From Psychrobacter arenosus (GTDB lineage Bacteria > Pseudomonadota > Gammaproteobacteria > Pseudomonadales > Moraxellaceae): 64,000 bases of DNA. The number at the start of each line of letters is the position of its first letter. The stretch's first letter is position 1. Positions 18,515-36,454 of this stretch are shown here, piece by piece. Location: assembly GCF_904848165.1 (NCBI RefSeq), contig NZ_LR884459.1, positions 2,046,001 to 2,110,000 of the forward strand, in the 5' to 3' direction. The notes under the pieces are model-generated. The model saw only the letters and a list, made by a program, of their open reading frames with translations. It ran no database searches and was not told where the DNA came from. The translations under genes were made by a program, and so were the position numbers.

Positions 18515-19465
18515 ATGTCATTTGCCCAAGTCCATACCCGCTCCGTTGTGGGACTGCACGCTCCTGAGGTTATGGTAGAGGTGCATTTATCAAACGGTTT
18601 GCCAGCTCTAACAGTAGTCGGTTTGCCTGAAGCCGCAGTACGGGAAAGTAAAGATCGGGTACGCTCTGCAATTATTAATTCGGATTTTCAATTTCCTAAC
18701 CGTAGGCTGACCATTAATTTAGCCCCTGCCGATCTGCCTAAAGATGGGGCTCGCCTCGATTTACCGATTGCGATGGGTATCCTAGCCGCTAGTGGGCAAA
18801 TTGAGCCCGAGTGGTTAGATGAGTATGAGTTTATTGGGGAGTTGGCTTTAAATGGCGATTTGCGCACGGTGGCAGGGAGTCTGGCCGTAGCTCGCGCTAT
18901 TAAATCGCACAGCAATCAACAGAATAGCGCAGCAAAGCATAAAGCCGATGAGCAGAAGCAGACGGATGAAAATACTAGAGCATCTATAACAGAACCCCGT
19001 AAGCTCATTGTGCCCGCTAATAATGGCGTAGAGGCCAGTCGTGTTGCTGGGGTCACCGTTTATGCTGCTCCGACGTTAAAAGCCGTGTGTGAGCATTTAC
19101 GGGCAGCGCATGACCCTAATAAGCCCTCGACAGAGCATTTGCTAGCCACTGTAAAAGCCAAAGTGAAATCGCTGACAGCCAATTACAAAGTGGATTTAGC
19201 CGATGTGAAGGGGCAGCACCATGCGCGGCGTGCGCTAGAGATTGCGGCGGCAGGCGGACATTCTTTACTGTTTACAGGGCCACCGGGCTCGGGCAAAACG
19301 CTGATGGCGTCACGGTTGCCGACCATCTTGCCGGATTTAACGGATGAAGAGGCGTTAGAAGTGGCCAGCACTTATTCCGTAGCCGATACCGAATATCACT
19401 ATGGCACGCGTCCCTTTAGAGAAATTCATCACACTATTTCGGCGGTTGCGTTGGTGGGTGGAGGG
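18515..19465 (+). pseudogene. comM: comM, 5' part, interrupted by a Tn7-like element
   Basis: The first 317 codons of the YifB/ComM Mg-chelatase-like AAA+ helicase, which drives branch migration during natural transformation. The Lon-like N-terminal domain (AQVHTRSVVGL, GLPEAAVRESKDRVRSA) and the Walker A motif TGPPGSGKT are present; the frame breaks after VALVGGG. Reading continues 47 codons into the transposon to a stop at 19609, giving a chimeric tail. The rest (Walker B onward) is at 36455-37096. Without the element the two parts join in frame to a 530-residue protein. Residues 130-170 form a low-complexity linker absent from most relatives. Confidence 0.95.
19461..19465. repeat. Target-site duplication, left copy (GAGGG)
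   Basis: GAGGG directly before the left terminus and again directly after the right terminus (36450-36454). Five bases is the standard duplication length for Tn7-like elements. Confidence 0.95.
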
Positions 19466-19509
19466 TGTCAATTCCAACAATTGATGTCATATTCCAAGAA
19501 TAGATGTCA
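19466..19509 (+). repeat. Left end: terminal repeat and two TnsB-type sites
   Basis: After the terminal TGTCA come two direct copies of ATTCCAACAATTGATGTCA (19471-19489) and ATTCCAAGAATAGATGTCA (19491-19509). They are the inverse of the right-end repeats and are probably TnsB-binding sites. I see no clear third copy further in. Confidence 0.85.
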
Positions 19510-19601
19510 TAAACCTATCCTTGATACTCTCTATTCTCTTAAAGTAATTCTCACTAAAATAGCTAACTCGCTACCTAACACAAATGGATTGAGAGTGAGC
19601 T

Positions 19602-21290
19602 ATGTTTGATACGTTATTCAAGAGTAATGGTAAAAAAGTTAAGTATATGGGTATGGTAAATATCCGAAAATATTTTGAGGTATGTCTAGGGAGTTATTAT
19701 AATCCAAAGACTGAGTATGTCGTACTGTGGTATGGGAAAATATACTATTATCGTAGACGTAAAACGGTTCAAGTGTACTTTCTAAATTCTACTACCAAAA
19801 AACAAGTTGTAGTCGGAGTATCAATCAAATCAATATTAAAGTTACCTATAGGGTCTATTTGGGTTGATGGTATCTGTGAGGAGAAGTACGATTTTGAAAC
19901 ATTATATACCACGTTAGATGCATATAACGATAAGCAACAAGAACGCCCAAACCTTACATATACTAACCATTTTGGTATTTCAGCGAATAAAGGCGATTAT
20001 ATTCTTGAGCCTGATAACTATCCAGTTGATGACATTAAAACAGACTCTAATACAAACCTCGTTGTACAGACTGGTAATACTAAAATAGTTATCCCATCGG
20101 TTTTATTTTTTGTTGCACACTATGGGGTATCGAAAGAAATCAATAAAGTTCTAATTAGTTATCACAAAGAGGAAGCCGAAGAAAGGTTGAATATAAATGA
20201 TAACTACGGTGATCTGATTACCATACCTGATCGATGTGTAATTGCCGACGCTGTATTCTTATTCTATTTGAAAACAAATAGTTATACCAAAAAATTAGTT
20301 TGGAATCTCAATTCAAGAATGCTTAGAAATGATAGGCAGTACCTTTCTCTAATGGCTCAGCCTTATCATAAGCAAGAAATTCAACTTAAGATATTAGGTT
20401 TGAAAATTGATGATCAGACCATACTTTGTACCGAAATTTTAGGTATGTCTATGCCACAGGGATCTGAAATAGAGTACAGGATAGATAAGCCTAATTCTGC
20501 CACATACGGTGAAGGTGTTGAACCTCAAACATTAAAGTTTCAACCAATCTACAACACTATTGAATCTGATGAAATAATATTAGAGGCTCAAAGAGATGCT
20601 AATAATATAACCACTGCTGTAGTAAGGCATAGAATAGAGCAGATAGGTAAGATAAGGGCGCTTGTGAAGAGCGAGGATTTAACTTTAGATGAAGTTATAG
20701 ATACTTGTAACTCAAAGGTTGTAAGGTTACCTCAACATGAGCCCAACACCTTTTCAGATGGAGAGGACGGCAATGCTAATGGTGATATTGGCAGGATCCA
20801 AGTTCTAGTAGAGAGTGGTGCGATTCATCCAATAAAGAACAACTTTGAGCGTCTATTACGTTATGCTCAAGATCTTAAAGTCACTTCGGGCTACTCACCT
20901 GTAGTCATAGATTGCGTAAATTTGGCTAACGATAATATATTTATTGGTGAGACGGTGCATGGCATGCATATAGCGCAGTATGACTCTAGTGTGGAAGTAG
21001 TTTTCGTTATGCGTCTGAGTTTTGAAAAACATGGGCTTTTTTATATATTTGATTGTCAGAAAAAAGGCAGCCAAACTAGCGGTATTGTTATAAAAGTAGC
21101 AAATGAAGATATCTTTATAAGAGATGCGATACGACGAATTTTAAGTCAGTTATTTAGAAATAACGGTCGGTTGGCCGATGTAAGTGAAATATCTGGATTT
21201 AGTACCATCAAATATTTTAAACACACGAACGGCGAGAGTTCCAATTGGGTTAAAACTGCAATAGATAATTGGTTGCAAGTAGTGAACTAA
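19602..21290 (+). CDS. tnsE: TnsE-like transposition target selector
   Basis: A 562-residue protein resembling Tn7 TnsE (538 residues), judged from memory of that sequence. Shared landmarks: VKYMG then YNPKTE and LNSTTKKQ in the first 85 residues; EILGMSMPQ in the middle; and a C-terminal domain with LFYIFDC, IVIKVAN, a short basic helix, and a final HTN...W...I..WL pattern. In Tn7, TnsE directs insertion to replicating, often conjugal, DNA via the sliding clamp. Here it lies 92 bases inside the left end, opposite the tnsABC operon rather than next to it. Confidence 0.75.
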   Translation: MFDTLFKSNGKKVKYMGMVNIRKYFEVCLGSYYNPKTEYVVLWYGKIYYYRRRKTVQVYFLNSTTKKQVVVGVSIKSILKLPIGSIWVDGICEEKYDFETLYTTLDAYNDKQQERPNLTYTNHFGISANKGDYILEPDNYPVDDIKTDSNTNLVVQTGNTKIVIPSVLFFVAHYGVSKEINKVLISYHKEEAEERLNINDNYGDLITIPDRCVIADAVFLFYLKTNSYTKKLVWNLNSRMLRNDRQYLSLMAQPYHKQEIQLKILGLKIDDQTILCTEILGMSMPQGSEIEYRIDKPNSATYGEGVEPQTLKFQPIYNTIESDEIILEAQRDANNITTAVVRHRIEQIGKIRALVKSEDLTLDEVIDTCNSKVVRLPQHEPNTFSDGEDGNANGDIGRIQVLVESGAIHPIKNNFERLLRYAQDLKVTSGYSPVVIDCVNLANDNIFIGETVHGMHIAQYDSSVEVVFVMRLSFEKHGLFYIFDCQKKGSQTSGIVIKVANEDIFIRDAIRRILSQLFRNNGRLADVSEISGFSTIKYFKHTNGESSNWVKTAIDNWLQVVN

Positions 21291-21380
21291 TTGTTTTCTG
21301 TATTTGTGTAATTCTCTATTGAGCATTAAAATATTCCAAATTATTTGAGTAGGGGTGTGTAGAAGCATCGGGCTTAGAAA

Positions 21381-21854
21381 TTGTTCGAAGTGCAGCATTT
21401 TGTTGATAATATAACCATAAAATATCACGAGCTTCCTAAGGTGAAATACTGTCGTAGATACAGGACAAAAAGTGGACTTCCACGCACCATGATGGAAGCT
21501 AGATTTCAGTATGCTAATCAAGGATTTTCACTCTTTGAGGTGTATGCTGCAGATATTGATACACGCCTATCGACGCTTATCGTTAAGGTTGACAGCTACG
21601 ACCAACTTGAACGCAAAATACCAGAGTTTATGACAAAGGTAGTCAAAGGGTCCCCATCTTGGACAGATGTGGCGGCGCTGTTTGATAATTCCAATATACT
21701 CCATCATCCTATTGGCTTTTATGAAAAAGAGTTCAATGAAAGGGTGATACAAAAATGGTTGAGTGGACTGCAAAAAAATTGCTCTTATTCTCTGAAAACG
21801 AGAGTAACACCTAAACAAGTATCTTATGGTTGGGGTGATTGCCACATATCTTGA
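21381..21854 (+). pseudogene. Second TnsE, C-terminal domain only
   Basis: The 157 codons align with the last third of Tn7 TnsE: LPKVKYCRRYRTKSGLPR against its LPKVGRSRLHLCKDGSPR, then FSLFEVYAAD, RLSTLIVKV, KVVKGSPSWTD, LHHP and a final W. The TTG at 21381 is two codons after an in-frame TAG and has no good ribosome site, so the first two thirds of the gene appear lost. It follows the intact tnsE by 90 bases. It could still be made as a short protein, but a truncated remnant is likelier. Confidence 0.7.
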
Positions 21855-21888
21855 TATTTTATAAACATTAATTTTACAGGTCTTTTTT

Positions 21889-22115
21889 ATGACAACAAGC
21901 AATCAACAACGTGCCGAACTACACCGCCAAATTTGGCAAATTGCAAACGAGGTTCGGGGCTCAGTCGATGGCTAGGACTTTAAGCAGTATGTATTGGGTA
22001 CGCTGTTCTATCGTATTATAGAACAAATAATCGCTTCTTTTGATTACTTCTATTTATTGGAGACGCTTACCATGTTAGTAGATAATAATGATAGTCTGAT
22101 AGGTATAAAGGGGTG
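21889..22115 (+). pseudogene. hsdM remnant (type I restriction methyltransferase N-terminus)
   Basis: ATG at 21889 begins MTTSNQQRAELHRQIWQIAN and continues through VRGSVDG, then a TAG where HsdM proteins have W, then DFKQYVLGTLFYRI, matching the conserved HsdM N-terminus. Homology ends about 42 codons in. This is a fossil of an earlier restriction-modification cargo, cut short and carrying a nonsense codon. The frame closes at 22115, six bases before the next gene's TTG. Confidence 0.8.
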
Positions 22116-22120
22116 AGGCA

Positions 22121-22759
22121 TTGCTACATCAACTAAAAGAAAATGGGTATGTTTTCATATCAAGTGATGCTAATAGCTCAATACTTGATGTAGCAAAAAG
22201 CATTGGTGATGTATTCAAGATTCCAACAATGCCTTTGGTTCAGACTCTCACACCAAGACTTAAAAAAGATGAACATGAAAGTACGTACAGTGGTAACTTT
22301 GGGATCGATGAGTTCCCGTTTCATACCGATTTAGCTCACTGGCATACTCCACCAAGGTTTTTTCTTCTAAGGTGTGTTACTCCTGCACCAAATGTTTATA
22401 CAAAACTCATCGATAGCAGATATTTATGTGACTCTCTTGACTCTGTACTTGTTAGTAGGTCTCACTTCAAACCAAGAAAAACTTTAGATAGAACTGCCAA
22501 TATATTAAAAATCAAGGAAGGCGAAATATTTAGATGGGATTCCATTTTCATTAAGCCTATCAATAATAGTGCCAAAAAATTAAGCTTACTTATTCAAGAT
22601 AAGTTAAATATAACGGAAGCAGTCAACCTGAGTCTTGCTAAAGAAGGTGACTGTCTACTGATCGATAATTGGCGAATGGTTCATGCAAGAGATCCTATAT
22701 CTGAGAAAGAAATGAATAGGAAAATAGAAAGAATTTATTTTGAAAAGGTGATAATTTGA
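22121..22759 (+). CDS. TauD/TfdA-like Fe(II)/2-oxoglutarate dioxygenase
   Basis: A 212-residue protein with the iron-binding pair H68-x-D70 (EFPFHTDLAHW) and distal H188 (NWRMVHARD), followed by arginines at 200-204 that could bind 2-oxoglutarate. This is the TauD/CAS-like double-stranded beta-helix layout, but shorter than TauD (about 280). The TTG start at 22121 has a strong GGGGTGAGG before it. Its last four bases overlap the ATG-equivalent start of the next gene, so the two are translationally coupled. Substrate unknown; a small molecule, a nucleic acid or the partner protein are all possible. Confidence 0.7.
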   Translation: MLHQLKENGYVFISSDANSSILDVAKSIGDVFKIPTMPLVQTLTPRLKKDEHESTYSGNFGIDEFPFHTDLAHWHTPPRFFLLRCVTPAPNVYTKLIDSRYLCDSLDSVLVSRSHFKPRKTLDRTANILKIKEGEIFRWDSIFIKPINNSAKKLSLLIQDKLNITEAVNLSLAKEGDCLLIDNWRMVHARDPISEKEMNRKIERIYFEKVII

Positions 22760-23706
22760 ATATTACAAGAACAGCTCATGAATGGTCTAAACATTCCTTT
22801 TTTTCTAAAGCTCAACGCTATGCTGAAAAAATGCTAGAGAAAAACCATTCTGATTGGGAGTTTGGATTTTGGTCTGCTTTAACGTTAGAGATACTAGTTC
22901 GTGCGTCTATCTCAAATATATCACCAACGTTGGTTGCTGATGGAAAGGACTGGAATAATATTTTATACGCTTTGGACAAGACCCCCAATCAGAAAAAATT
23001 TATTGCCAAATCTGCAGATATATCTGATTTATTAAGAAGAGCAGAGAGTCTTTTTCCTGATTTCACAACTGAAATGTTGAGCTTTAGTCTTATACATATA
23101 AACAAAAGGAATAGTGAGCTACATTCAGGTTCATTACCTTTTGACGATGTTAGTTCTTCCTCATGGATGCCAATGTTTTATTGGGTTTGTAAGGTGTTAT
23201 CGGAATCGTCAGGAGAAACCTTATCTACATTATTTGGAACGGAAACTGCTGCCGAAGCGGAAATTCATATAGAAGCTTTACGCGATGCAAGTGCCAAATC
23301 TGTTAAAGGAACTATTCACGCACATACCGTCATCTGGAATGAAAAGACGGAAGAGGAAAAAGAGCAACTAATAGCACAAGCTGAATTACTCTCAAATAAG
23401 CATAGAGGGCACAGAGTACAATGCCCTGCTTGTAATAGCGTTGCTTTATTACAAGGAAGCTCAATTGGTGTGCCTAGAAACGAAATTGTCGATGACGGAA
23501 TTGTTGAGAAACAATCTATGCTCCCATCCAGTTTTGAATGTACAGCTTGTGGTTTGAAAATACTGGGTTACTCCAAACTTGTAGCGTGTGAGTTAGGAAA
23601 TACCTATACAGCTACTAACCACTATTTACCTATGGATTACTTTGGAATAGATATTGAAGAAGAAATGCGGGCTGCTATGTTTGAAGACAACAACGAACCA
23701 TTCTAA
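22756..23706 (+). CDS. HEPN-like protein with C-terminal zinc ribbon
   Basis: A 316-residue protein. Residues 15-130 form a helical region ending in R118-N-S-E-L-H123, the RNxxxH active-site motif of HEPN RNases, with the family-typical helix LTLEILVRA upstream. A zinc ribbon follows: C223-P-A-C226 and C262-T-A-C265. HEPN domains act as RNases in toxin-antitoxin, Abi and CRISPR systems. Start overlaps the oxygenase gene by four bases, and its stop overlaps the next possible start (TAATG). I do not recognise a named family for the full architecture. Confidence 0.6.
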   Translation: MNITRTAHEWSKHSFFSKAQRYAEKMLEKNHSDWEFGFWSALTLEILVRASISNISPTLVADGKDWNNILYALDKTPNQKKFIAKSADISDLLRRAESLFPDFTTEMLSFSLIHINKRNSELHSGSLPFDDVSSSSWMPMFYWVCKVLSESSGETLSTLFGTETAAEAEIHIEALRDASAKSVKGTIHAHTVIWNEKTEEEKEQLIAQAELLSNKHRGHRVQCPACNSVALLQGSSIGVPRNEIVDDGIVEKQSMLPSSFECTACGLKILGYSKLVACELGNTYTATNHYLPMDYFGIDIEEEMRAAMFEDNNEPF

Positions 23707-24197
23707 TGATAGCAGCAAAAGTTAATAATTATATAAAAATGGATTCTATAATGGCTAAAAACGAATATATTGATGCTGTACCTGAGGATATTGATAATCT
23801 AAAAACACTTGCTAATAATAAAATTAGTTATAAATCAAGAAATGAGGCAATTGATATACTTGAGAAGTACAAGTGTCGTCAAAGTATTGATATACTGTGG
23901 CGCTTAATGATGAACGATAGAGTTTACTCTGTTCAACATAAGGCATTTCTTGCATTACAAAATTTTGGCGAGCAAGTTCACCTACCTAGAAAGAGAAAAG
24001 GTCACTTAGTCAAAGATATTAATAAGAAGTTAGGGGTTGTTCAAAGAGCCTTCAATGACAGCGAATACTCACCTAATGAATTCCTTGAAAAATTTAAATC
24101 AATGTACCCTGAAGCTTACGACATATATTCGTATGAAAAAGGGACTAAAATGCAAAGCTGGGTAATAAATACTCTTAATAGTCTACCTAAAAAATAG
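23706..24197 (+). CDS. Small helical protein, HEAT-repeat-like
   Basis: Up to 163 residues. The ATG at 23706 overlaps the upstream stop; the ATG at 23751 (MAKNEYIDAVPEDIDNL) is an alternative start. Residues 25-90 contain paired helices (NEAIDILEKYKCRQSIDILW, VQHKAFLALQNFG) like one or two HEAT repeats, then a basic stretch. It is the third gene of the coupled oxygenase-HEPN set, so it may be a partner or antidote, but this is inference only. Confidence 0.55.
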   Translation: MIAAKVNNYIKMDSIMAKNEYIDAVPEDIDNLKTLANNKISYKSRNEAIDILEKYKCRQSIDILWRLMMNDRVYSVQHKAFLALQNFGEQVHLPRKRKGHLVKDINKKLGVVQRAFNDSEYSPNEFLEKFKSMYPEAYDIYSYEKGTKMQSWVINTLNSLPKK

Positions 24198-24338
24198 CAT
24201 ACTTTTACGGAGTCAGGCACAGCTACATTGACTACTGGGAAAAATGATAAAATCAATAGCAATTATTCCTTCATGTTTATCTTGATCACCATCTTTCAAT
24301 AACTGATATAACTTATTAATATGAATTTAGAGTAAATA

Positions 24339-25376
24339 ATGAATACTTACCAAGACATATTTAACAAAATGTTGTATAAGACTGTTGAAAGCGCCGATTG
24401 TCGTTTATCAAAAGCTGAGCTAGAGTCTTGTATAAACTCTTCTGCTTCAGATTTCATAAATGAAACTATCCCAGAGATAGCCGATACAATTGTCTTATCA
24501 TTAAATAAAGAATCCAAAAATCATCTGAAATTAATTAGAGACTATGCAGATGGGTTCGTAGATAGAAATATTGAGAGATGGAAAAGCGGCTTTGATGCTT
24601 TAGAGATTTTTATTATTACATGTTCTGAAATAGGGGAAGATTTTAATAATACCAATAGAGACCGGGCAGCTCGAGAGAATAATGTAAAATTTGACACTTT
24701 AGTTCGCTTACATGCTAGAGCCTGTCATATTTCTTCAGAGATACTTTGGTTACTTAAAGGCGGTTTTGCTGATGGTGCTCACGCACGATGGCGCGCATTA
24801 CATGAGGTAGTAGTTACAGCTCTTTTTCTAAGTACTCATGAGAACGAGCTTTCTATTCGTTATCGTCAACATGAAGTAGTAGAGTCTTATAAAGGTATGA
24901 CGCAATACAATCACTACGAGCCAAGACTAAATATCGTTAAATTCTCTGAAGAAGAATTAATGGAATGTAAGTTAGCTTATGAAGAATTACTTAGTAAGTA
25001 TGGGCAAGAATTCAAGACTAGTTACGGTTGGGCAGCAAACGTATTAAACAATAAAAAACCTAACTTTTTCAATATTGAAGAAGCTGTAGAACTTGATCAC
25101 TTTCGACCATATTATAAATGGGCAAGCCAAAACATACATGCAAATGCACATGGTATTAATAGCAAGCTTGGCCTAGCTGAGGCAAAAGAAGACGTTCTGC
25201 TAGTAGGAGCAAGCAACTCAGGTATGACTGATCCTGCTCAATTGACAGCTTTATCTCTTTCGCAGATCTCAGTCGGATTACTTAATATATATTCGAATAT
25301 TGATACTTTGATTACGCAACACGTAATTGAGAAATTAAAAGAAGATATTGGCGATTTGTTTTTCAAGTCTGAGTAA
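24339..25376 (+). CDS. DUF5677-like hypothetical protein
   Basis: A 345-residue, mostly helical protein. The segment LLKGGFADGAHARWRALHEV followed by a hydrophobic helix and a YRQHEVVESYK stretch resembles the DUF5677 family, which is common in defence islands and on mobile elements, function unknown. No signal peptide or membrane helix. It lies 141 bases after the HEAT-like gene, same strand, similarly AT-rich, so it may belong to the same cassette or be a separate unit. Confidence 0.55.
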   Translation: MNTYQDIFNKMLYKTVESADCRLSKAELESCINSSASDFINETIPEIADTIVLSLNKESKNHLKLIRDYADGFVDRNIERWKSGFDALEIFIITCSEIGEDFNNTNRDRAARENNVKFDTLVRLHARACHISSEILWLLKGGFADGAHARWRALHEVVVTALFLSTHENELSIRYRQHEVVESYKGMTQYNHYEPRLNIVKFSEEELMECKLAYEELLSKYGQEFKTSYGWAANVLNNKKPNFFNIEEAVELDHFRPYYKWASQNIHANAHGINSKLGLAEAKEDVLLVGASNSGMTDPAQLTALSLSQISVGLLNIYSNIDTLITQHVIEKLKEDIGDLFFKSE

Positions 25377-25611
25377 ACGGAACGATTTGACTACAGCATA
25401 GTATAACTACGGCGAACCTATCAGGCTCCTTCCTTAGTTCGGTTCCCTAGTGGGGACTTGAATCTAAGGCTGTAGGCTACTGATATCAACCACCTTCATA
25501 GGTTGTGGAGTTTCGGTGGGATTACCGGTGTAATTTCAATGTACATTAAGCAAGCTTTTCGAGAGTAAGTTCAGTTATTCTCGTTTATATCTTATTTATC
25601 TCTATATAGAG
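25377..25611. other. Non-coding gap inside the transposon
   Basis: About 235 bases without a gene. It has a higher GC stretch (25400-25530) with a possible hairpin (ACCT-TCAT-AGGT near 25491-25502). It does not resemble its AT-rich neighbours and may be a fragment of another element; no T-run marks a terminator. Confidence 0.4.
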
Positions 25612-26130
25612 TTAAGTTTTGGGAAGCTGATTTTCAACTTTCTTTAATAGCAAATTGATGATAAGCAGCTCTTCTTTACTAATATTCTTCATCAAGTCAT
25701 TCTCTAGTTGCACATGTGATGCGATTGCTCTATCGATCAAGTCAAGGCCTTTGGAAGTTAGTTTGACTAATAAGCTTCGTTTGTCCTCTGGGTTATCAAT
25801 GCGCTCAATAAGTTCCTTCTTTTCTAAATGTTGTAAGCGATTGGTCATCGTACCAGAACTCACCATCATGCTATCAAACAAAACGGTTGGGCTCATTAAA
25901 TATGGGGTGCCTGTGCGTCGTAATGTCGCTAACACATCAAATTCCCAATGTGATATTTGATAATTTATCTTATAGTTAGCAGATAGCTTTCGCATTAATA
26001 TAACTTCTAACCGCTTTATACGGCCTATAGTCTCCATTGCTAACAAACTATCAGTAGCAAATCCTTGGTTTTGCCACTGGCTAATAATCTTCTGTACTGC
26101 ATCTTCTTGTGTACACCCTTCAGTTTGCAT
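25612..26130 (-). CDS. MarR family transcriptional regulator
   Basis: A 172-residue winged-helix regulator. The helix-turn-helix region reads FDVLATLRRTG then SPTVLFDSMMVSSGTMTNRL, and the wing has ERIDNPEDKRSLLVKLTSKG, the MarR signature. It is divergent from the EamA exporter, with a perfect 8-bp palindrome between them, so it very likely represses the exporter and nitroreductase genes and itself. The operator resembles those of quinone-sensing MhqR-type MarR proteins. Confidence 0.88.
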   Translation of the reverse strand: MQTEGCTQEDAVQKIISQWQNQGFATDSLLAMETIGRIKRLEVILMRKLSANYKINYQISHWEFDVLATLRRTGTPYLMSPTVLFDSMMVSSGTMTNRLQHLEKKELIERIDNPEDKRSLLVKLTSKGLDLIDRAIASHVQLENDLMKNISKEELLIINLLLKKVENQLPKT

Positions 26131-26233
26131 TGATTTACTCCTCGTTATGATTAGAATATTTATGATTTTGGAGATATTAAAATGTCTATTTCTACTGAAA
26201 ATTCCTCATAGGCAGTAATAGTAGCAATATTAT

Positions 26234-26251
26234 TATCTTGACATCAAGATA
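26234..26251. promoter_or_regulatory. MarR operator palindrome
   Basis: TATCTTGA-CA-TCAAGATA: a perfect inverted repeat in the 170-bp divergent region between marR and the EamA gene, 49 bases before the EamA ATG. TTGACA inside it could be the -35 of the rightward promoter, so repressor binding would block RNA polymerase. Confidence 0.75.
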
Positions 26252-26300
26252 TATAATGATATTCTGACATTAAGGTCATTTTCGGCCGTTAGGATATTAT

Positions 26301-27263
26301 ATGACTAAATTTACAGAGCGAAATAGCTCTCCTTGTAGAAGTGTATGGTTAGTTCCTTTAATGTGTCTTCTAGTTGGAGGCGCGTTACTTGGTATCTCTA
26401 CCAACGTTGCAAAATATGCGGGTGAAATAGGTTTGTCTCCGCTTGCCTTTTTATTTTGGTCAATTGCTGGTGCTGCCACAATCTTGTTAGTTATTGCGTT
26501 ACTACGCCATGAGCTTCCACCTCTCAACAAACGCAGCTTTGAATATTACTTTATCTCTGCTTTGGTCAGCGTTGCAGGCTCTAACTTACTTTTCTTTTCC
26601 GCTATTCCCCATGTCGGTGCCGGTTTTGTAGCCCTAATCATTTCCTTACCACCACTTCTCACCTATCTTGGGGCACTAGCGTTAGGGATGGAGCGATTTC
26701 AGACGGTTCGAGCTCTTGGGGTTGCAGCTGCACTTGCCGGTGCAGGTGTCCTAGCTGCCCGTAAATTTTCTGCACCAGATGCCAGTGTGTTTTGGATTTT
26801 GATAGCACTCTGTGGCCCTGTTTTGCTCGCTATTGGTAACCTCTATCGTACATTGCGTTGGCCGGAAGGAGCGTCTCCCAATGCGCTTGCTCCAGGCATG
26901 CTTATTGCGGCTGTAGTCTTACTTGGCGCAACAAGCCTCCTACCTGACTTCTCACTTACTGTTCCATTGGGAGGTTTCCTGCCACTTGGTTTAATTACCT
27001 TACAGGCCTTCATATTCGCCGGTCAGTTTCAGTTATTATTTCTACTTCAAAAAACGGGTGGCCCGGTTTTATTAAGCTTATTAGGATCTGTTGGAGCAAT
27101 TGTAGGTGTACCTGTCGCTGTTTTTTTACAAGGTGAATCTCCACCGGACGGACTCATTCTAGGCGCCTCTTTGATTGCACTCGGTGTAGCACTTGTTACA
27201 TGGGGTGGTATGAAAATGATGACACTATCGAAACAAAAACTTGAAGTGCCTGATAAGACCTGA
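26301..27263 (+). CDS. EamA/DMT family exporter
   Basis: A 320-residue inner-membrane protein with about ten TM helices in two EamA halves (first half to about residue 150, second from residue 165). GGALLGISTNVAKYAGEIG at the start and the FWSIAGAATILL and FSAIPHVGAGFVAL segments fit the drug/metabolite exporter superfamily. Divergent from marR and followed by a nitroreductase, so it probably exports an electrophile or drug; the substrate cannot be read. GC content is higher than in the genes to its left. Confidence 0.8.
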   Translation: MTKFTERNSSPCRSVWLVPLMCLLVGGALLGISTNVAKYAGEIGLSPLAFLFWSIAGAATILLVIALLRHELPPLNKRSFEYYFISALVSVAGSNLLFFSAIPHVGAGFVALIISLPPLLTYLGALALGMERFQTVRALGVAAALAGAGVLAARKFSAPDASVFWILIALCGPVLLAIGNLYRTLRWPEGASPNALAPGMLIAAVVLLGATSLLPDFSLTVPLGGFLPLGLITLQAFIFAGQFQLLFLLQKTGGPVLLSLLGSVGAIVGVPVAVFLQGESPPDGLILGASLIALGVALVTWGGMKMMTLSKQKLEVPDKT

Positions 27264-27370
27264 ATTTAAAAAGTTTGATTTCCTTTGTAAGTTTATTCAA
27301 TAAGCCTGACCAACCTTAATCACACGATATAAATAACATTCTATTTAACAAAATTTAAAAGGATAAAAAT

Positions 27371-27985
27371 ATGCCGCAATCCAATTCAGCCAACCTACAA
27401 CAAGCCTTCACTAAACGTCGGTCCATTTATGCTTTAGGTGGCAACTTAACGGTAAAACCACAAGCAATTATTGATATTGCTGAGCGCACAATACTAAATA
27501 CCCCTTCAGCCTTCAACTCACAGACGACACGTCTGGTAGTGTTGTTTGGTAAGCAGCATAAGCAGCTATGGGATATCACCGAAACCCATTTACGTAAGGC
27601 GGTTGGCAGTAACGACTTTTCAGGTAGTAAACAAAAAATGGATGGTTTTCGTGCGGCTGTGGGTACAGTTATGTTTTACGAAGATAAGGAGGTTATACAA
27701 TCGTTACAAGATAAGTTTGAGCTATATGCTGATAGATTTCCTATTTGGGCGCAGCAAACCTCAGCAATGCATCAATATGCTATGTGGTTAGAATTGAGTG
27801 CTTTAAATATTGGTGCAAATCTTCAGCATTATAATCCACTAATCAATAATGATATTGCATCAGCTTTTTCAATTCCTAAGCAGTGGGAACTGGTTGCTCA
27901 AATGCCATTTGGTAACATCGTTGAGCCAGCTGGCGAAAAAACCTATCAGTCAGCCAGTGAACGTATCAAAGTGTTTGGGCTGTAG
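27371..27985 (+). CDS. Nitroreductase family protein, Frm2/Hbn type
   Basis: A 204-residue FMN-binding nitroreductase. TKRRSIYALGG near the N-terminus, NTPSAFNSQTTRLVVLFG, and the C-terminal MPFGNIVEPAGEKTY...SERIKVFG match the Frm2/Hbn subgroup, which reduces nitro-compounds and quinone-like electrophiles with NAD(P)H. AAAGGAT precedes the ATG. It lies 107 bases after the exporter and is probably in the same MarR-controlled unit. Confidence 0.85.
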   Translation: MPQSNSANLQQAFTKRRSIYALGGNLTVKPQAIIDIAERTILNTPSAFNSQTTRLVVLFGKQHKQLWDITETHLRKAVGSNDFSGSKQKMDGFRAAVGTVMFYEDKEVIQSLQDKFELYADRFPIWAQQTSAMHQYAMWLELSALNIGANLQHYNPLINNDIASAFSIPKQWELVAQMPFGNIVEPAGEKTYQSASERIKVFGL

Positions 27986-28214
27986 TAATAATGCCTTGAT
28001 GCTAATGTCAGTATGTTTGGACATCCTACAGTCAGGTTTTCTCGAATATATACAGTAGGCAGAGCCATTAAGTTTTACGACTTTTTAGATTTAAAATGCT
28101 AGCGTATATTTGATTATTGCTTGGTACTACTGCAAAAGATAACCAATTAAAATCGTGATAATGCATCGACTCATAACTCAAAAAAGACACATAGCCGATA
28201 GTGCGAGGTAGGAA

Positions 28215-29378
28215 ATGAGTAAGTTTAGTTATAGCCAATGGATACTAGCCACCATAACAATAATCGTAGGTCTTAATCTTAGGCCTATTATGGCCTCGAT
28301 ATCTCCAATCGTACCTGTGTTAGCAAACGATATAGGAATAAATAATCAAACTGCTGGACTATTGACTACTTTGCCAGTTGCAATGATGGGCTGCTTTGCG
28401 CTTTTAGGTCCCAGAATTCAATCTAGAGTAAGCGAGTATATAGGTATATTAGCTGGATTGTTGGCGATAGCGCTTTCTTGTGGCTACCGATTTTTTACTG
28501 ACTCTACATTACTTCTACTGATAACGTCTCTCATTGGAGGCATTGGTATAGCAATCATCCAAACTCTGATGCCCGCCTATTTAAAAAGAATTGCGCCAGA
28601 TAATGCTAGCGTTTTTATGGGGTTATTTACAACAGGTATTATGGCTGGGGCTGCGATCTCAGCTGCTACAACCTCTCCTTTAGAAGGAGCATTTGGATGG
28701 AATATCGCTTTATCGATTATGGCTATCCCTGCCATATTGGCAATTATACTGTTTTTCTATTATATGCCACATATCAAGAGCAGTAGAAACGGCTATTTGC
28801 CTCTACCTATAAAATCTAAAAATGCATGGCTGTTAATGCTTTTCTTTGGCATAGGAACAGGCGCATACACATTGGTTCTAGCTTGGTTGCCATTAAATTA
28901 CACCCAGCTTGGGTGGAGTAGAGATGCTTCTGGCGCTTTACTAAGTATTTTAACGGTGGCAGAAGTAGTTTCTGGCATCTTAATTTCTATATTTATCAAA
29001 AAATTCAACGATCGCCGAAAGCCATTATTTGTCACTCTATCGCTCATATTAGTTGGTTTAATATTGCTTATCTATATCCCCTCAAAGCTTGCATTTTTAA
29101 CCGTTATAATTTTAGGTTTAGGGATTGGTGCTTTATTTCCTTTATCTTTAATCGTAGCGCTTGATTACGCCTCTAACGCCAAGCAAGCAGTGACTTTATT
29201 AGCTTTTGTGCAAGGTGGGGGATACTTAATCGCTTCAGCATTCCCGTTCATGGCAGGTGTTTTGATTGATGTTTCAAGTGATTTAACGGGAGCGTGGATT
29301 GGAATGATTGTTGGGGTTTTACTGCTACTCACTATTTGTAATAAATTCTCTCCACGAGATTTTGTGGTTCGTTATTAG
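28215..29378 (+). CDS. MFS transporter, CynX/NimT family
   Basis: A 387-residue transporter with about 12 TM helices. LRPIMASISPIVPVLANDIG at the first helix is the CynX/NimT-type signature (LRP...ISP). Family members move cyanate or 2-nitroimidazole, the latter fitting the nearby nitroreductase. GAGGTAGGAA precedes the ATG. It lies 230 bases after the nitroreductase, so a separate promoter is possible. A second, unrelated member of the family is at 57429-58682. Confidence 0.82.
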   Translation: MSKFSYSQWILATITIIVGLNLRPIMASISPIVPVLANDIGINNQTAGLLTTLPVAMMGCFALLGPRIQSRVSEYIGILAGLLAIALSCGYRFFTDSTLLLLITSLIGGIGIAIIQTLMPAYLKRIAPDNASVFMGLFTTGIMAGAAISAATTSPLEGAFGWNIALSIMAIPAILAIILFFYYMPHIKSSRNGYLPLPIKSKNAWLLMLFFGIGTGAYTLVLAWLPLNYTQLGWSRDASGALLSILTVAEVVSGILISIFIKKFNDRRKPLFVTLSLILVGLILLIYIPSKLAFLTVIILGLGIGALFPLSLIVALDYASNAKQAVTLLAFVQGGGYLIASAFPFMAGVLIDVSSDLTGAWIGMIVGVLLLLTICNKFSPRDFVVRY

Positions 29379-30026
29379 CATAGCTCAAGGGAAGAGGTTG
29401 ATTACAATCAGGTCATTTTTGACTTTGCTTACAACATTGATGATCTCACAAAAATAAGGGTCGGTGCTCGAACGATAAAAAATATAAATTATTTAGTCGC
29501 CAATACTCAGTACGAAACGTGGTGTCAGCAGATACAGTTATACGAATGTCTAAGCTATCTGCTCACCAGGGCAAAATTAAACAACTTGGCACCACCTATT
29601 GGTGAGAAGTTAATAAGCTTACTTAGAAAATGTTTGACTGAGTGCTCTGTATCAGTCATGTATTACATAATATGGAAAGCAGTTGAAAGTGCAGCAGCCT
29701 TCGCACAAAAACCAGATATCACTCGAAAACATGCATCAAACGCTATTTCTGGTAACATTGAACGAGTTTTCGGTAAGATATCTAGTGGCAGTTGGCACTA
29801 CCCTAACAAATCTTATCGCGATGCCAGTCACCCTCAGTCTGCGATGGCCAAAATATTTTTTGATTACGTGTTTGGCTTAGATGATTGTGGTTTTCACAAT
29901 ACCTTGGATGAGCTATTCAATCCATATAAGATGCAGCAAACTATTGAGAAAACAAGCTATTCAACTTTGGGAAGTGCGCAAATCACCAGTTATTCAGTGG
30001 CTATTGGTGATTTGAAAATAGTATAG
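29379..30026 (+). pseudogene. 5'-truncated gene of unknown function
   Basis: An open frame starts right after the MFS stop, in the same frame, and runs 215 codons to 30024, but has no ATG; the only start codon is a TTG at 29586 in mid-domain. Residues encoded before that TTG (for example VIFDFAYNIDDLTKIRVGAR) look protein-like, so this is probably the C-terminal part of a larger gene whose start was lost when the MFS cassette arrived. I do not recognise the family. Confidence 0.5.
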
Positions 30027-30071
30027 ATAGGTTTTTTTTTTCAGTATGACTGGTAATTATCCAATGAAAAC

Positions 30072-30129
30072 TGAACTGCCCCTGTACTCTCTCAGGATGC
30101 TGAGCCTCCAACGATCGCCGGGCAGTTCA
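30072..30129. repeat. Perfect 10-bp inverted repeat around a 38-bp centre
   Basis: TGAACTGCCC (30072-30081) and GGGCAGTTCA (30120-30129), with a second small palindrome CTCAG-GATG-CTGAG inside. It lies 115 bases after the end of the tns operon. It may be the operon's terminator, or the paired ends of a tiny insertion-sequence remnant. Confidence 0.5.
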
Positions 30130-30243
30130 AATAAGATTCATATTGTCCTCTGTGTCTTTATAACCCAATTCAACCAACATATCTCTATTTAATTACAATA
30201 TTCTAAAAGTTAGTCAGCTAGATGCTAAGTGGTGTGGTGTTTA

Positions 30244-31668
30244 TTATATTTTTGGTAGCCAATACTCTTTTTGATTAAATACTATTTTAAACATATCTTC
30301 ATCGCATGGCTCGGTAGGTAATGTCCTAAGCGTCTTCACTTGAATATCCACCTGATGAAAATAACTCATACTCATCTGTATCCACATCAGTTCATCCTTG
30401 TCCGATAACGGTTTAGGTTGGTCATAAAGCACCATCATTTTCTGTTCAATCTCTTTCTTCTTGAGCTTTTGAACATCATCCTTACTAGGTTTGTTGCAAG
30501 CCAAGTTCAAACCGTAACTTTTGTTCAAAAAAGCGATGAAACCATATAATGCGCTGTACTGACCTTGCTTAACTAGCAAATACCCATCCAATTGTTCCTG
30601 ACTTGGCGTATGCGAGCCTTCGATGTCGTATTTAGTACATAGGTCTATTGCAGGCTGCAAGGCTAATCTGACGGATTTAAGCGAGGTTTTACCCATAAGC
30701 AGTTTTTGCTCTAAATATTGATGATATTCAATGATGCAACGAGGCACTTTACCGTCAAGTTTAGCCAGCAAGTTAACAATGCGCTCGTCCTCTGCAATCT
30801 GATCTTTAATCTTGGGATCTACCACAACTTGCTTAGTTTTAATCAGCCACCGCAGTACCGTGAGGTACTCACGTAGTCCATTTGGCTTGAACTCATGTAC
30901 CAGTGATTCATAACAGGGTATCTTGCCCCATAGCTCATCACAGTGAACAAAGAAATTGATGAAATGGGTATGTTTAAGAGTGGCGGTCTTGCTGCCAAGC
31001 TCGGCCTTAAACCATATTGTAAAAGCAGTATAAGCTTGTCTCATCAGATCGGACGATAAAAGGTAGGAGTTAGTCCTTGTCTCAAGCTCTAATCTTTGTG
31101 ACCAGTAACAGTCATCACATCTTTTACCCATACCCGCAGGCATAAGCTTATCGCAACTCTCGCAGGGGATCTCACCTAAGTCATGGCATTTTTGACACGC
31201 CATACCTTCCTCAGTATCAACAAGCTCTCTATACTTGTGACATCGAGGGCATGTCGCTCTAAAGTGCCCTTGATAGCAGGTGACACACACCGCCTGATCA
31301 TGAGATAGTTTAGAGTAGCGACTAACACCTCTTTTAAACTTACCGCACTCAAGGCATTCCTTTTCAGCCTTAAAGTAGCCCTGATAGCATATCTGACAGA
31401 CTCGTCCATACTCCGTATTAGCTCCATTTTTAACCGTCGCGCCGCCACAACGAATGCAGGGCTGACTCATACGACAAGATCTACAGACGGCAAAGTCCTC
31501 TTTTTTATGCAGACGATTTATCTTACCGCACTGACTACAAGGCTTTTTAACAAACCATATGCGATAACAATTGGCGCAATAGGTATCATCTTTATAGCGT
31601 CTTTTTATCTCAACGTTTTTATTACCGCAGGAGTTGCATCGATGTTTAGTCTTCTCTATGCTTGTCAT
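30244..31668 (-). CDS. Zinc-finger-rich transposition protein (TniE/TnsF-like)
   Basis: A 474-residue protein. Residues 10-190 hold about ten CxxC knuckles (CNSCGNK, CANCYRIW, CSQCGK, CRSCRMS, CIRCGG, CQICYQGYF, CLECGK, CVTCYQGHF, CPRCHK, CESCDK). The rest is helical; residues 330-400 (LKSVRLALQPAIDLC, YSALYGFIAFLNKSYG) resemble the SAM-like DNA-binding domain of tyrosine recombinases, without catalytic residues. It starts 23 bases inside the tniQ gene. Such a gene follows tniQ in comM-inserted islands; a target-recognition role is likely but inferred. Confidence 0.65.
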   Translation of the reverse strand: MTSIEKTKHRCNSCGNKNVEIKRRYKDDTYCANCYRIWFVKKPCSQCGKINRLHKKEDFAVCRSCRMSQPCIRCGGATVKNGANTEYGRVCQICYQGYFKAEKECLECGKFKRGVSRYSKLSHDQAVCVTCYQGHFRATCPRCHKYRELVDTEEGMACQKCHDLGEIPCESCDKLMPAGMGKRCDDCYWSQRLELETRTNSYLLSSDLMRQAYTAFTIWFKAELGSKTATLKHTHFINFFVHCDELWGKIPCYESLVHEFKPNGLREYLTVLRWLIKTKQVVVDPKIKDQIAEDERIVNLLAKLDGKVPRCIIEYHQYLEQKLLMGKTSLKSVRLALQPAIDLCTKYDIEGSHTPSQEQLDGYLLVKQGQYSALYGFIAFLNKSYGLNLACNKPSKDDVQKLKKKEIEQKMMVLYDQPKPLSDKDELMWIQMSMSYFHQVDIQVKTLRTLPTEPCDEDMFKIVFNQKEYWLPKI

Positions 31669-32803
31669 AACTTTCTCTCATCTGCATCTTGCGCTTAAGT
31701 CTATTCCATGCCGTCATTACCGCTTTGGGTGAGGCGGGTTGTATATCCTCTGATTGTGCTTTGTGTTGCCGCGTAGGTACTCTATGGAGCTGATCGCATA
31801 CCTCGCTAAAGGCTTTAGGTATAACCGTGTACTTTGACCACTGGAAGCTGTTTTGGGTAATATTAAGAGCTAAGCAAGCCTTGATCCACTCATCACCGTC
31901 AACTTGCAATAGGTAGTAGGCGCACTCAAGCAATACCGCTCGTTCTTCTATCGGCAAATAATCAAATCTGAGTGCCGTCTTGGGTAGTGATAAAGCGCTA
32001 GTATCAATCTCTAGTACAGTCAGTAGCTTGCCGAACATATAGTTGGGATTGTGCAGACCTCGCCTGACTAGATTTATTAAAAATAGCAGGTACTCAAACC
32101 ACTGAGCCATACTGACCAATTGCCCCAAAACAATGCCTTGCTTACTGAAAAAAGCCTGATCAGCAAGCAATTGAAACTTATCAAGCGCAGCGCTTGGCTT
32201 TATATCTGATATAGCTTTATCTATCTTATAAAGACAGGAGTGACAGCGATTGATGAACTGCTGCTCTGCACTTAAAAGCTGGGGCTGATAAGGCTGATTG
32301 CAGTACCCACAATCTACCTGCAAGAATGTCTTATGCTTAGAGCAGCAGACAGACCATGTAAAGCGCCATTGCAACTTAAGGTAAGCCTCTTTATCATCGC
32401 TCATGCAGTCAGGACAAAAGGGATAACCTAGCCTTGAATAGCGGTTGCGTTTTGATAAAGGTGCTGTCCAAAGTAGAGGTTTTTTGTTGTCTGATTTAAC
32501 TGACGTATCATCCAAGAAGTCGATCAATATTTGATTATCGAAAGTATCGATGTTGTGACCTGCTAGAGTTGCAATATCAGATCTGATTTGTCCATCGATA
32601 TGATCAAAACCTTTATCAACGTCATATGTCCAAATACGATACTTAGGCCAGTAGTAGTAGGTAAAGGTCAAAGGACTACATCCGTGTCTAAGCGCGGCGC
32701 GTACTAGCCAAGATGTTAAGCTCTCACCGTATAGAAAAGGTGTGGCAAAAGTCAGTGGTTTTACCCAATAATTCTGCGTAGCCCTTTGGTCGGTTTTAGA
32801 CAT
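31646..32803 (-). CDS. tniQ: TniQ/TnsD-like target-site selector
   Basis: A 385-residue TniQ-family protein. FLYGESLTSWLVRAALRHG is the TniQ N-terminal signature; zinc-binding pairs follow (FCPDC, WRFTWSVCCSKH, CGYCNQ, CHSC). TniQ/TnsD proteins bind a specific chromosomal site and recruit TnsC; here the site is presumably within comM. The start overlaps the end of tnsC by 43 bases and its end overlaps the zinc-finger gene by 23. Confidence 0.9.
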   Translation of the reverse strand: MSKTDQRATQNYWVKPLTFATPFLYGESLTSWLVRAALRHGCSPLTFTYYYWPKYRIWTYDVDKGFDHIDGQIRSDIATLAGHNIDTFDNQILIDFLDDTSVKSDNKKPLLWTAPLSKRNRYSRLGYPFCPDCMSDDKEAYLKLQWRFTWSVCCSKHKTFLQVDCGYCNQPYQPQLLSAEQQFINRCHSCLYKIDKAISDIKPSAALDKFQLLADQAFFSKQGIVLGQLVSMAQWFEYLLFLINLVRRGLHNPNYMFGKLLTVLEIDTSALSLPKTALRFDYLPIEERAVLLECAYYLLQVDGDEWIKACLALNITQNSFQWSKYTVIPKAFSEVCDQLHRVPTRQHKAQSEDIQPASPKAVMTAWNRLKRKMQMRESYDKHRED

Positions 32804-33654
32804 GACTTGCCCCTGATACTCTCAACAGTGATTTCTTCTTCACCTGACTCAATGGCGTTAATAGCGCAATCGTTAATTAAACGCTTAACATCGCCAAGGT
32901 TGCCTGTGCTAATGCTATAGATTAAATTGACCTTTTCAGTCTCAATGAGTTTAGACGGCTTTTTAAGTGGTAAAATCTTCTCAAAACTACCAACCAGACG
33001 CTTAAACTCTTTATCATTTGACCATAAAGAAAGCTCAGCGACATCAAAGCGACTAGCGTGTTGTGGGTCAGTGTGTAGAATACGAACAGCGTCTTTAGTG
33101 CCACAAAGCACGATAGGCATAAGCAATTCGTTACATAAGAATTTGATAACATTCATAATGGCTCGTTGCTGTCTGGCTGTACCCGTAAGCATTGAATGAA
33201 CTTCGTCAATAATTAGTATCTTGACGTTGGTGTGTCTAAAGGCGTTAACGACTTGGTATCTCAATTTATTGGCAGCATCGGTTGGTCTGTATGGCAGCTT
33301 AAACGCTTCAATAATAGAGATGTACAAATCCTTTTCACTGGCAGTTGGAGGCGCTTGGATTTTGACTATAGGTATAACTAATGTCTCATCAACCGTATGA
33401 TTTTCTCCGAACTTATCATAAAAACGATTTATGATTGTGGTTTTGCCATTATTGGAATCTCCAATAAGCAGCAAGTTTGGCATACGATGTTGCTTTACAT
33501 GGTTCATCAATCCCTGCATAACATCAATAACCTGATTTGCTGTGTTGTAGCCTACCCACCTTGGAGAGTGGATAAATTCAATCCTTTCTTTATCGGGTAG
33601 ATGAGCGATATGCCTAAATTTTTCATGAATGTGGGTGTATAAAGATTCGCTCAT
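32761..33654 (-). CDS. tnsC: TnsC-like AAA+ transposition regulator
   Basis: A 297-residue AAA+ ATPase (TniB/TnsC type). Walker A is LLIGDSNNGKTTIINRF, Walker B is VKILIIDEVHSML, and a sensor-like LCGTKDA follows. It forms filaments on target DNA and links the target selector to TnsAB. It starts at an ATG that shares one base with the tnsB stop (TGATG), which implies coupling. Shorter than Tn7 TnsC (555), as is typical for the TniB type. Confidence 0.92.
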   Translation of the reverse strand: MSESLYTHIHEKFRHIAHLPDKERIEFIHSPRWVGYNTANQVIDVMQGLMNHVKQHRMPNLLLIGDSNNGKTTIINRFYDKFGENHTVDETLVIPIVKIQAPPTASEKDLYISIIEAFKLPYRPTDAANKLRYQVVNAFRHTNVKILIIDEVHSMLTGTARQQRAIMNVIKFLCNELLMPIVLCGTKDAVRILHTDPQHASRFDVAELSLWSNDKEFKRLVGSFEKILPLKKPSKLIETEKVNLIYSISTGNLGDVKRLINDCAINAIESGEEEITVESIRGKSCLKPTKGLRRIIG

Positions 33655-35678: not shown

Positions 35679-36315
35679 GCCAGACCTCCATTTGCGGGTC
35701 TTTAACGTCATCCCAAATATCAAACCCGATTTGCTTATTTGCCATTAGGTGCCAAACCAGAGCCTGTCCATCATGTCGGTAAAGCTTAGATTTGAAGTAC
35801 CTCTCTAAGATATAGTCAACACTAGTGATGCCACGTTGCTTAATATCAGTGAGTATTACTTCAACCTCTTCGTTATTAATTCTTATGGTTTCATAAGTTC
35901 TCAGAAAGTTAATGTTATCAAGCGCCTCATGTCTAATCCTGTCTTCATCGAATATGATGAATCTGATACCTTTTTCCTTACAATACAGTTTAGCTGCCTT
36001 CCACTTGTCAGACCAATCACGCCAGTTTAGTTGCCACTCTCGTTTTGGTTTAACCTCTGCAATAAAAGACTTACCCGATTTAGCATCTAACTCCACATAA
36101 TAATCAGGCGTATAACGATAGGTTCTGCCATTTTTATTAAAAGGTATCTTCACAGGCTGAGGTGTGATGTTCTTAACATCTTCCCGAAAAGCATGATAAA
36201 TAATAAAATCTCTTTCTAAAGTCGATTCGTAAGCAAGCGGCTTTTTCTTGTAAGAAATGACACCTGAAACACTCCGTCTTGTCGGTTTTATTTTACGAGC
36301 TTGATGTTTGAACAT
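35665..36315 (-). CDS. tnsA: TnsA-like endonuclease
   Basis: A 216-residue restriction-endonuclease-fold protein that cuts the 5' ends, so the element moves by cut-and-paste. Catalytic residues are visible as YESTLERDF (E), YRYTPDYYVEL (D) and FIAEVKPK (E-x-K). I chose the ATG at 36315 (MFKHQARK); a GTG at 36354 is in frame but lies among the terminal repeats. The promoter must sit within the TnsB-site array, suggesting that TnsB represses its own operon. Confidence 0.92.
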   Translation of the reverse strand: MFKHQARKIKPTRRSVSGVISYKKKPLAYESTLERDFIIYHAFREDVKNITPQPVKIPFNKNGRTYRYTPDYYVELDAKSGKSFIAEVKPKREWQLNWRDWSDKWKAAKLYCKEKGIRFIIFDEDRIRHEALDNINFLRTYETIRINNEEVEVILTDIKQRGITSVDYILERYFKSKLYRHDGQALVWHLMANKQIGFDIWDDVKDPQMEVWHVGH

Positions 36316-36317
36316 TA

Positions 36318-36449: not shown

Positions 36450-36454
36450 GAGGG
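36450..36454. repeat. Target-site duplication, right copy (GAGGG)
   Basis: Second copy of the 5-bp duplication, directly followed by the comM codons TCA CGA CCT (SRP). Confidence 0.95.

Follow-up and report, generated by a model that had tools for sequence, protein, structure and literature searches.

A 64,000-nucleotide stretch of the Psychrobacter arenosus genome (contig NZ_LR884459.1, positions 2,046,001 to 2,110,000; the window, by which we mean this whole stretch) carries on its plus strand a gene for a compact Fe(II)/2-oxoglutarate (2OG) oxygenase of TauD/clavaminate-synthase-like type (22121–22759; 212 amino acids, TTG start as listed). It is followed directly by a gene for a predicted HEPN RNase with a C-terminal zinc ribbon and a conserved tail (22756–23706, plus strand; 316 amino acids, TTG start). 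The two genes almost certainly constitute a real conserved module. Our best explanation, which we hold tentatively, is that the pair is a mobile two-component defence module, toxin-antitoxin-like in character, in which the oxygenase would control the HEPN RNase through the tail. This explanation draws on features read from the sequences, namely the pairing and overlap of the genes, the conserved state of the two active sites, a tail that the solo relatives examined lack, and the mobility and neighborhood of the pair.

An original prediction, made from the DNA letters, had described the locus as a candidate defence or toxin system of three coupled, AT-rich genes, the third being HEAT-like. The open reading frames (ORFs) lie where it placed them, on the plus strand, with overlaps of 4 bases between the oxygenase and HEPN genes and 1 base, at 23706, between the HEPN and HEAT-like genes. 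At the 4-base overlap, the letters TTGA hold the oxygenase stop and the TTG start of the HEPN gene in one. Base composition is likewise as described: G+C is 0.34–0.36 across the 3 kb from 22001 to 25000, below the values of about 0.38–0.50 seen in most other kilobases of the window. The proposal that all three genes form one translational unit stands for genes 1 and 2, which are a conserved unit, and falls for gene 3, which is not conserved with the pair.

Conservation of the oxygenase-HEPN pair

Scanning of 84,980 species genomes (GTDB) with an alignment of 13 HEPN-zinc proteins yielded 78 loci, and IMG/VR yielded 5. Together with 14 annotated plasmid loci these make 97 loci besides the window, many of them interrelated and one (L016) a copy of the window's own element. 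The peptide pattern of the scan sits in the HEPN protein and imposes no selection for the oxygenase. An oxygenase of the same subfamily was located immediately upstream of the HEPN gene in 97/97 of these loci (78/78 from GTDB and 5/5 from IMG/VR). A pattern-free check, in which two draws of 369 and 398 genomes were searched by profile, revealed 1 and 6 genomes with a HEPN gene besides the window's, and the oxygenase adjoined it in all seven. Three of the seven encode a HEPN protein identical to that of L035, L075 or L082, and four are new, with 38–60 percent identity to the nearest member. The neighborhood search proposed in the original prediction has thus been run, and a TauD-like neighbor of the HEPN-zinc gene recurs at every other locus and in every profile-found genome, the reverse of the homologues that never co-occur which that prediction had named as the outcome against it. 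Among plasmid records, 44 were matched by the window oxygenase and 44 by the window HEPN protein; a divergent oxygenase query (from L082) matched 46, every one of which was also matched by a HEPN query.

With starts chosen by script, the two genes overlap in 83/98 loci and lie within 20 bases of each other in 96/98, the exceptions being L090 and the broken L013. Damaged copies of one or both genes occur in L008, L009, L011, L013 and L086, and the HEPN genes of L052 and L093 and the oxygenase gene of L071 reach the end of their sequence stretch.

Joint descent was assessed with 74 representatives: the window together with members of the GTDB and IMG/VR sets, the 14 plasmid loci being excluded. 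Both genes are full-length in every representative, and for at least one of the two genes identity between representatives does not exceed 92 percent. Oxygenase and HEPN distance matrices were strongly correlated (Mantel r 0.93, with 0/2000 permutations as high). The protein trees contained 40 well-supported splits for HEPN and 24 for the oxygenase, and 16 HEPN splits were common to both. Because the distances correlate and the trees largely agree, the pair appears to be mostly inherited and transferred as a unit.

The oxygenase

The product of gene 1 matched Pfam TauD with an E-value of 6e-12 (46.4 bits, cut-off 27), and its iron site is H68-x-D70...H188. In 98 aligned pairs, with gapped sequences left out of each denominator, the Fe(II) triad is almost invariant (H68 97/97, D or E at 70 97/97, H188 97/98), in keeping with the 2OG oxygenase carrying H-x-D...H that was originally called here. 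Other residues are similarly conserved (T94 95/97, R200 97/97, R204 98/98), and R138, R190, R200 and R204 are invariant in the family. T94 and R200, which align with clavaminate synthase, are presumably the 2OG-binding Thr and Arg. Profile matches in the PDB, down to E 1e-15, were clavaminate synthases, L-lysine 3-hydroxylase and L-arginine beta-hydroxylases, with asparagine oxygenase a weaker match (E 3.5e-6). Homology and the conserved triad point to an Fe(II)/2OG enzyme with a predicted double-stranded beta-helix fold and predicted 2OG-dependent hydroxylation activity.

Oxygenases of the 74 representatives are 209–236 amino acids long. Across 36 pair-bearing genomes, 35 paired oxygenases scored 198–260 bits and the remaining one, a truncated copy, scored 75.6 bits, whereas other TauD-type matches in the same genomes scored at most 37.4 bits. 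Because of this gap in bit scores, the paired oxygenases are a sharply separate subfamily, present as one copy per genome in the 36 genomes.

The HEPN-zinc ribbon protein

HEPN RNases are defined by an R-x4-6-H motif with a polar residue following the Arg, and the HEPN-zinc family carries such a motif. Codons 23092–23124 of the plus strand specify the motif region of the window protein (residues 113–123, motif R118-N119-x-E-L-H123, here R118-N119-S-E-L-H123), and codons 23422–23550 specify the zinc ribbon (C223-P-x-C226...C262-x-x-C265). Across the 98 aligned pairs, R118, N119 and H123 are each conserved in 96/97 sequences, C223, C226 and C262 in 95/95 each, and C265 in 94/95. The RNxxxH motif and zinc ribbon assigned to the second gene are therefore near-invariant across 98 loci as RNxELH and CPxC...CxxC, and the lack of HEPN motif conservation that had been named as a ground for abandoning the idea was not found. 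The motifs of both proteins are almost invariant across 98 aligned family members, i.e. beyond chance. A crude propensity calculation gave 70 percent helix over residues 1–200 of the HEPN protein. The zinc ribbon may bind nucleic acid. Neither PDB nor Pfam provided a convincing family match for the HEPN-zinc protein, and no Pfam HEPN family matched the window protein at its cut-off.

One variant of the motif was noted in Bradyrhizobium septentrionale (L105, 7971–8930), where the Arg is replaced by Gln (QNAELH); the oxygenase there matches the profile of the family, and the HEPN protein retains the tail.

The C-terminal tail and solo relatives

A brief acidic peptide closes the C-terminus of partnered HEPN proteins and is conserved in two forms: half of the family has the consensus YEPDYGND, and the other half has YEDDNNER or YEPDFNEY. 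In the window it is FEDNNEPF (residues 309–316, codons 23680–23703 of the plus strand; consensus YEPDYGND or YEDDNNER). In 72/74 representatives the last four residues include an Asn with Asp, Glu or, in one case, Cys directly after it; the background, taken from neighboring ORFs other than the HEPN and oxygenase genes, is 6/853. With redundant copies kept, 89/92 proteins had this ending, L008, L023 and L051 being the misses. Excluded from these counts are HEPN copies that are truncated or split (L011, L013, L052, L086 and L093), as well as L016 and L001, which are copies of the element in the window. In L008, the oxygenase is without the aligned 2OG arginine and the tail is without the Asn.

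HEPN-zinc proteins without the oxygenase exist. The solo protein P0001 matched 38 plasmid records, of which 34 are actinomycete and 4 are Pseudomonas records with the pair. None of the 34 actinomycete records is among the 46 matched by the divergent oxygenase query, and in the 8/34 that were examined there was no oxygenase in flanks of at least 3.5 kb. All eight of these relatives keep RNxxxH and the zinc cysteines, and the tail is present in 0/8. Partnered HEPN proteins form one clade (76/76, support 0.93). A Streptomyces anulatus plasmid protein has both the oxygenase and the tail (EPEYGND). Because the tail occurs with the oxygenase and is absent from eight solo relatives, the proposal that the oxygenase restrains the RNase gains support. 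That the tail is a target or docking site of the oxygenase is, judged from this pattern, a proposition falling just short of even.

The solo genes without oxygenase or tail lie on actinomycete plasmids (L103, at 5899–6798, and L106–L112), and L103 has a second solo relative at 1169–2290.

Distribution and genomic neighborhood

Plasmids, phage-like contigs and a Tn7-like element all carry the pair, and 32/44 plasmid records with the pair are typed conjugative. Hosts, by record title, include Pseudomonadota, Acidobacteria, Verrucomicrobia, a Rhodopirellula, a Bdellovibrionaceae, a cyanobacterial metagenome-assembled genome (MAG) and Paenibacillus; a Streptomyces host is known via a plasmid. The HEPN gene occurred in 1/105 genomes of the window's genus, namely the window's own, and whole-genome profile searching located the pair in 6/397 other genomes of the phylum. 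The pair is rare per species and broadly spread. Two HEPN queries against 50,697 phage records found no match.

Known or candidate defence genes are among the neighbors. Gabija genes lie beside the pair in L004 (GajA E 1.5e-286, GajB E 1.7e-266), and a Tmn-like protein (E 2e-85) lies beside it in L003, where genes annotated AbiV and AbiH are also nearby, the AbiV one without a PADLOC match. In L098, a tail tape measure gene (profile match) is present a few kb downstream of the pair, in a neighborhood shared with L096 and L097. For a controlled comparison, 117 neighbor genes from 20 long-contig loci (18 of them among the 74 representatives) were set against 119 control genes, one control region being taken per same genome, using PADLOC at E 1e-20 with unvalidated candidate models included. 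As raw counts, neighbors matched 84 PADLOC models (at least 17 distinct names) and controls matched 43 (at least 5 distinct names). Among those listed, neighbor matches included PrrC, AbiE, Lamassu and DRT components, type I restriction and several unvalidated candidates, and control matches were dominated by one type I specificity gene. The surmise that this is a defence locus is thus borne out to the extent that the pair resides on mobile elements and has defence genes beside it more often than controls. RNases of the R-x4-6-H type occur in defence and toxin-antitoxin loci. We consider it probable that the pair has a defence or toxin-antitoxin-type role.

No constant extra partner gene was seen among the loci; the accompanying genes, TrlF, Gabija and type I restriction among them, differ from locus to locus. 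A Ppl/TrlF-family anti-phage ATPase adjoins the pair in at least eight loci, two of them profile-confirmed, so it may cooperate, and the ATPase and the pair are possibly a cooperating system. It is no required component because it is not seen in most pair loci. The ATPase gene is upstream of the pair in L007, L010, L014, L072, L073, L077 and L087 and downstream in L006. Other recurrent neighbors were an uncharacterised gene of about 267 amino acids, the same in L096, L097 and L098 and situated just upstream of the pair, and a protein of up to 694 amino acids encoded directly downstream of the HEPN gene in L029, L032, L035, L036 and L041. The L041 copy of the latter gave weak matches to a BbrUII-type restriction enzyme and a MutL-like ATPase.

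Comparison with described systems

In HEPN/MNT toxin-antitoxin systems, MntA is described as adenylylating the HEPN RNase HepT, thereby blocking toxicity (PMC7641770). The likeness to the present module lies in a two-gene arrangement of HEPN RNase and enzyme partner, together with the covalent modification of a HEPN protein that is reported for MntA-HepT in the same source (PMC7641770). However, the partner here is an Fe/2OG oxygenase and not a nucleotidyltransferase; a 2OG oxygenase stands in every locus where an MNT partner would carry the GSX10DXD motif. Moreover, the HEPN protein here is one of 316 amino acids with a zinc ribbon and a conserved tail, and its modification is only proposed. 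The oxygenase in turn shares with TauD/TfdA and clavaminate-synthase-like 2OG oxygenases the H-x-D/E...H triad, the Thr and Arg, and detectable homology. It differs in size, at 209–236 amino acids against 273–403 for the PDB matches, bar one of 815, and in forming a separate subfamily with a HEPN partner.

A survey of the HEPN superfamily records some HEPN proteins with zinc ribbons, as here (PMC3710099), and its main text contains 0 occurrences, even within words, of oxygenase, hydroxylase, oxoglutarate, ketoglutarate or TauD. DefensePredictor reports validated HEPN nuclease-effector systems, among them DS-11 with a CBS domain suggested as regulator (PMC13092281), and oxygenase has 0 occurrences in the main text of that paper. 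The PADLOC database of 2023 held no family matching either protein at E 1 or better, neither protein was matched in PHROGs, and in the main texts of open-licence papers, the literature that our search covered, we recognised no description of an oxygenase-HEPN pair. The pair looks like a HEPN nuclease with a cognate enzyme partner, apparently undescribed as a defence module. It would add the oxygenase as a class of partner enzyme to HEPN RNase modules.

A proposed mechanism and its alternatives

Because the oxygenase gene comes first and overlaps its partner, the catalytic residues are conserved and the tail is linked to the partner, the pair may obey a logic like that of HEPN/MNT with other chemistry. 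In the scheme we propose, the HEPN-zinc protein is the predicted RNase effector, and the oxygenase would bind the acidic C-terminal tail of its partner (consensus YEPDYGND), most likely hydroxylating the conserved tail Asn or the adjoining Asp/Glu. Hydroxylation would restrain, or less likely license, the RNase. An infection that removes oxygenase activity, whether by loss of Fe(II), 2OG or oxygen, by shut-off of host expression or by a phage inhibitor, would free the RNase, with the result that growth and phage replication stop. We infer each of these elements, from RNase activity and tail binding to hydroxylation, its direction and its trigger.

Restraint of the RNase by hydroxylation is somewhat unlikely as a specific claim, and we rate as unlikely the full immune switch, in which the oxygenase would hydroxylate the Asn-Asp tail and the RNase would stay silent while oxygen, iron and 2OG are normal. 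Animals sense oxygen by asparaginyl hydroxylation, and the likeness of such a switch to that process is one of logic only. The switch would give, to our knowledge, the first RNase toxin controlled by an oxygenase. Among the closest solved oxygenases are several, including asparagine oxygenase, that work on the side chains of amino acids. If true, control by hydroxylation would be categorically new. The pair also makes it conceivable that central metabolism, through 2OG, iron or oxygen, gates immune or toxin nucleases. The control step lends itself to direct testing, since partnered proteins have a conserved tail and the solo relatives examined lack it.

A number of observations weigh against this scheme. 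The HEPN assignment derives from the motif and a crude helix prediction, which makes the all-alpha HEPN fold a prediction. Pfam matches of the 74 HEPN members were mostly to zinc ribbons and weak, with HEPN_Cthe2314 matched in 2/74 (best E 0.054). Relatives from PF18730 and PF13643 were gathered, and a profile comparison of the HEPN-zinc family, made with the DUF4145 (PF13643) HEPN proteins only, gave no significant match. Nearest neighbors of the two proteins agree in only 42/74 cases, and 4/40 supported HEPN splits conflict with a supported oxygenase split, so some exchange may have occurred. Solo relatives are all Actinomycetota, so absence of the tail is confounded with phylogeny. The tail ending is missing from L023, and L051 combines an intact oxygenase with a tail that has no Asn. 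Even with no modification, the tail could serve for docking or could inhibit its own protein. Finally, clavaminate-synthase-like enzymes mostly act on free or carrier-bound small molecules, not on protein tails.

Other arrangements of the same parts can be envisaged. In an RNA-level form of restriction-modification, the oxygenase would hydroxylate or demethylate self RNA, such as tRNA, HEPN would cut according to the mark, and the tail would only join the two proteins. Obligate pairing, correlated distances and the zinc cysteines of the nuclease fit such a system, and the invariant R138, R190, R200 and R204 of the oxygenase could face phosphates. However, the nearest profile relatives are named small-molecule and amino-acid hydroxylases, with 0/38 PDB sequences among the matches listed named a nucleic-acid oxygenase; an enzyme of 209–236 amino acids has scant space for an RNA-binding surface; and RNA modification does not by itself explain why solo HEPN proteins are without the tail. 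We judge it improbable, and place at the same low level a sensor or antitoxin acting by binding alone. Here, cofactor-bound oxygenase would sequester the HEPN protein via the tail and release it when Fe, 2OG or oxygen falls, with no hydroxylation involved. Co-occurrence of tail and oxygenase and the adjacent, overlapping genes with the oxygenase first are all consistent with sequestration, whereas the near-complete conservation of Fe/2OG residues favours turnover, though cofactor binding could also conserve them.

It is very doubtful that the oxygenase instead makes a signal or serves as co-effector, in which case infection would lead it to form a hydroxylated small molecule (derived from an amino acid, say) able to activate HEPN or poison the cell. 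Homology to amino-acid hydroxylases speaks for this, and the zinc-ribbon region could conceivably house a ligand site, but within the HEPN protein Pfam detects neither a sensor nor a receptor domain, and this reading leaves the tail pattern unexplained. Quite improbable, finally, is a role outside defence, in plasmid maintenance (addiction) or as a stress module that answers to the status of oxygen, iron or 2OG. The pair is common on plasmids typed conjugative (32/44 records), as addiction would predict, but chromosomal contigs carry it too, with defence genes around it and phage tail genes nearby, and addiction and defence are compatible roles.

The HEAT-like gene

The HEAT-repeat-like gene (23706–24197, plus strand; 163 amino acids) is a passenger. 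Its product matched Pfam HEAT_2 weakly, with an E of 0.0066, below the Pfam cut-off. The original prediction had a system of three genes, in which the HEAT-like protein might be given the part of sensor or scaffold. Such a system is suggested by the 1-base overlap at 23706 and is highly improbable. The gene is missing from the other 96 loci and recurs only in the near-identical Photobacterium element (L016). Its product matched 31 plasmid records of its own, and none of the 15 listed is among the 40 listed pair records. We rejected the three-gene candidate on these two grounds, and as a general feature it is already contradicted. Many of the plasmids with HEAT-like relatives are small; they come from Acinetobacter, lactobacilli and staphylococci, and the 15 matches listed are 36–59 percent identical.

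Downstream of the module is a gene for a DUF5677 protein (24339–25376; E 7e-30), which among the loci is found elsewhere only in L016.

The Tn7-like carrier transposon

The window's pair was said to lie on a transposon, and it does, on a Tn7-like element of about 17 kb (19466–36449) inserted in a gene that we take to be comM from its split Mg-chelatase-like pieces, the 5' part within 18515–19609 and the 3' part within 36425–37096. The ends are inverted: TGTCAATTCCAACA stands at 19466, the complement of this sequence ends at 36449, and GAGGG flanks both as a 5-bp target duplication. On the minus strand at the right end, Pfam matches were obtained to TnsA, TniB (TnsC-like), an integrase/Mu-transposase (TnsB-like) and TniQ, and a TnsE C-terminal domain was matched at the left end. 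The element thus has TnsABC-TniQ genes along with inverted ends and a 5-bp duplication.

A copy in Photobacterium carnosum (L016) is 99.7–99.9 percent identical over the comparable part of the element, pair included. It is broken by further insertions, and its flanking sequence differs from that of the window, i.e. it occupies a different site. Because this copy is near-identical yet has different flanks, it suggests recent movement of the element between hosts.

Two further ORFs of the transposon were noted. Beside the TniQ gene, the minus strand encodes a 474-amino-acid protein (30244–31668) without a Pfam match at E 0.001, which may serve the transposon as an additional protein for target selection. 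At the left end, a 562-amino-acid ORF without a Pfam match (19602–21290) directly precedes the separate ORF with the TnsE C-terminal domain (21381–21854), and because of this arrangement the TnsE gene may be split between the two.

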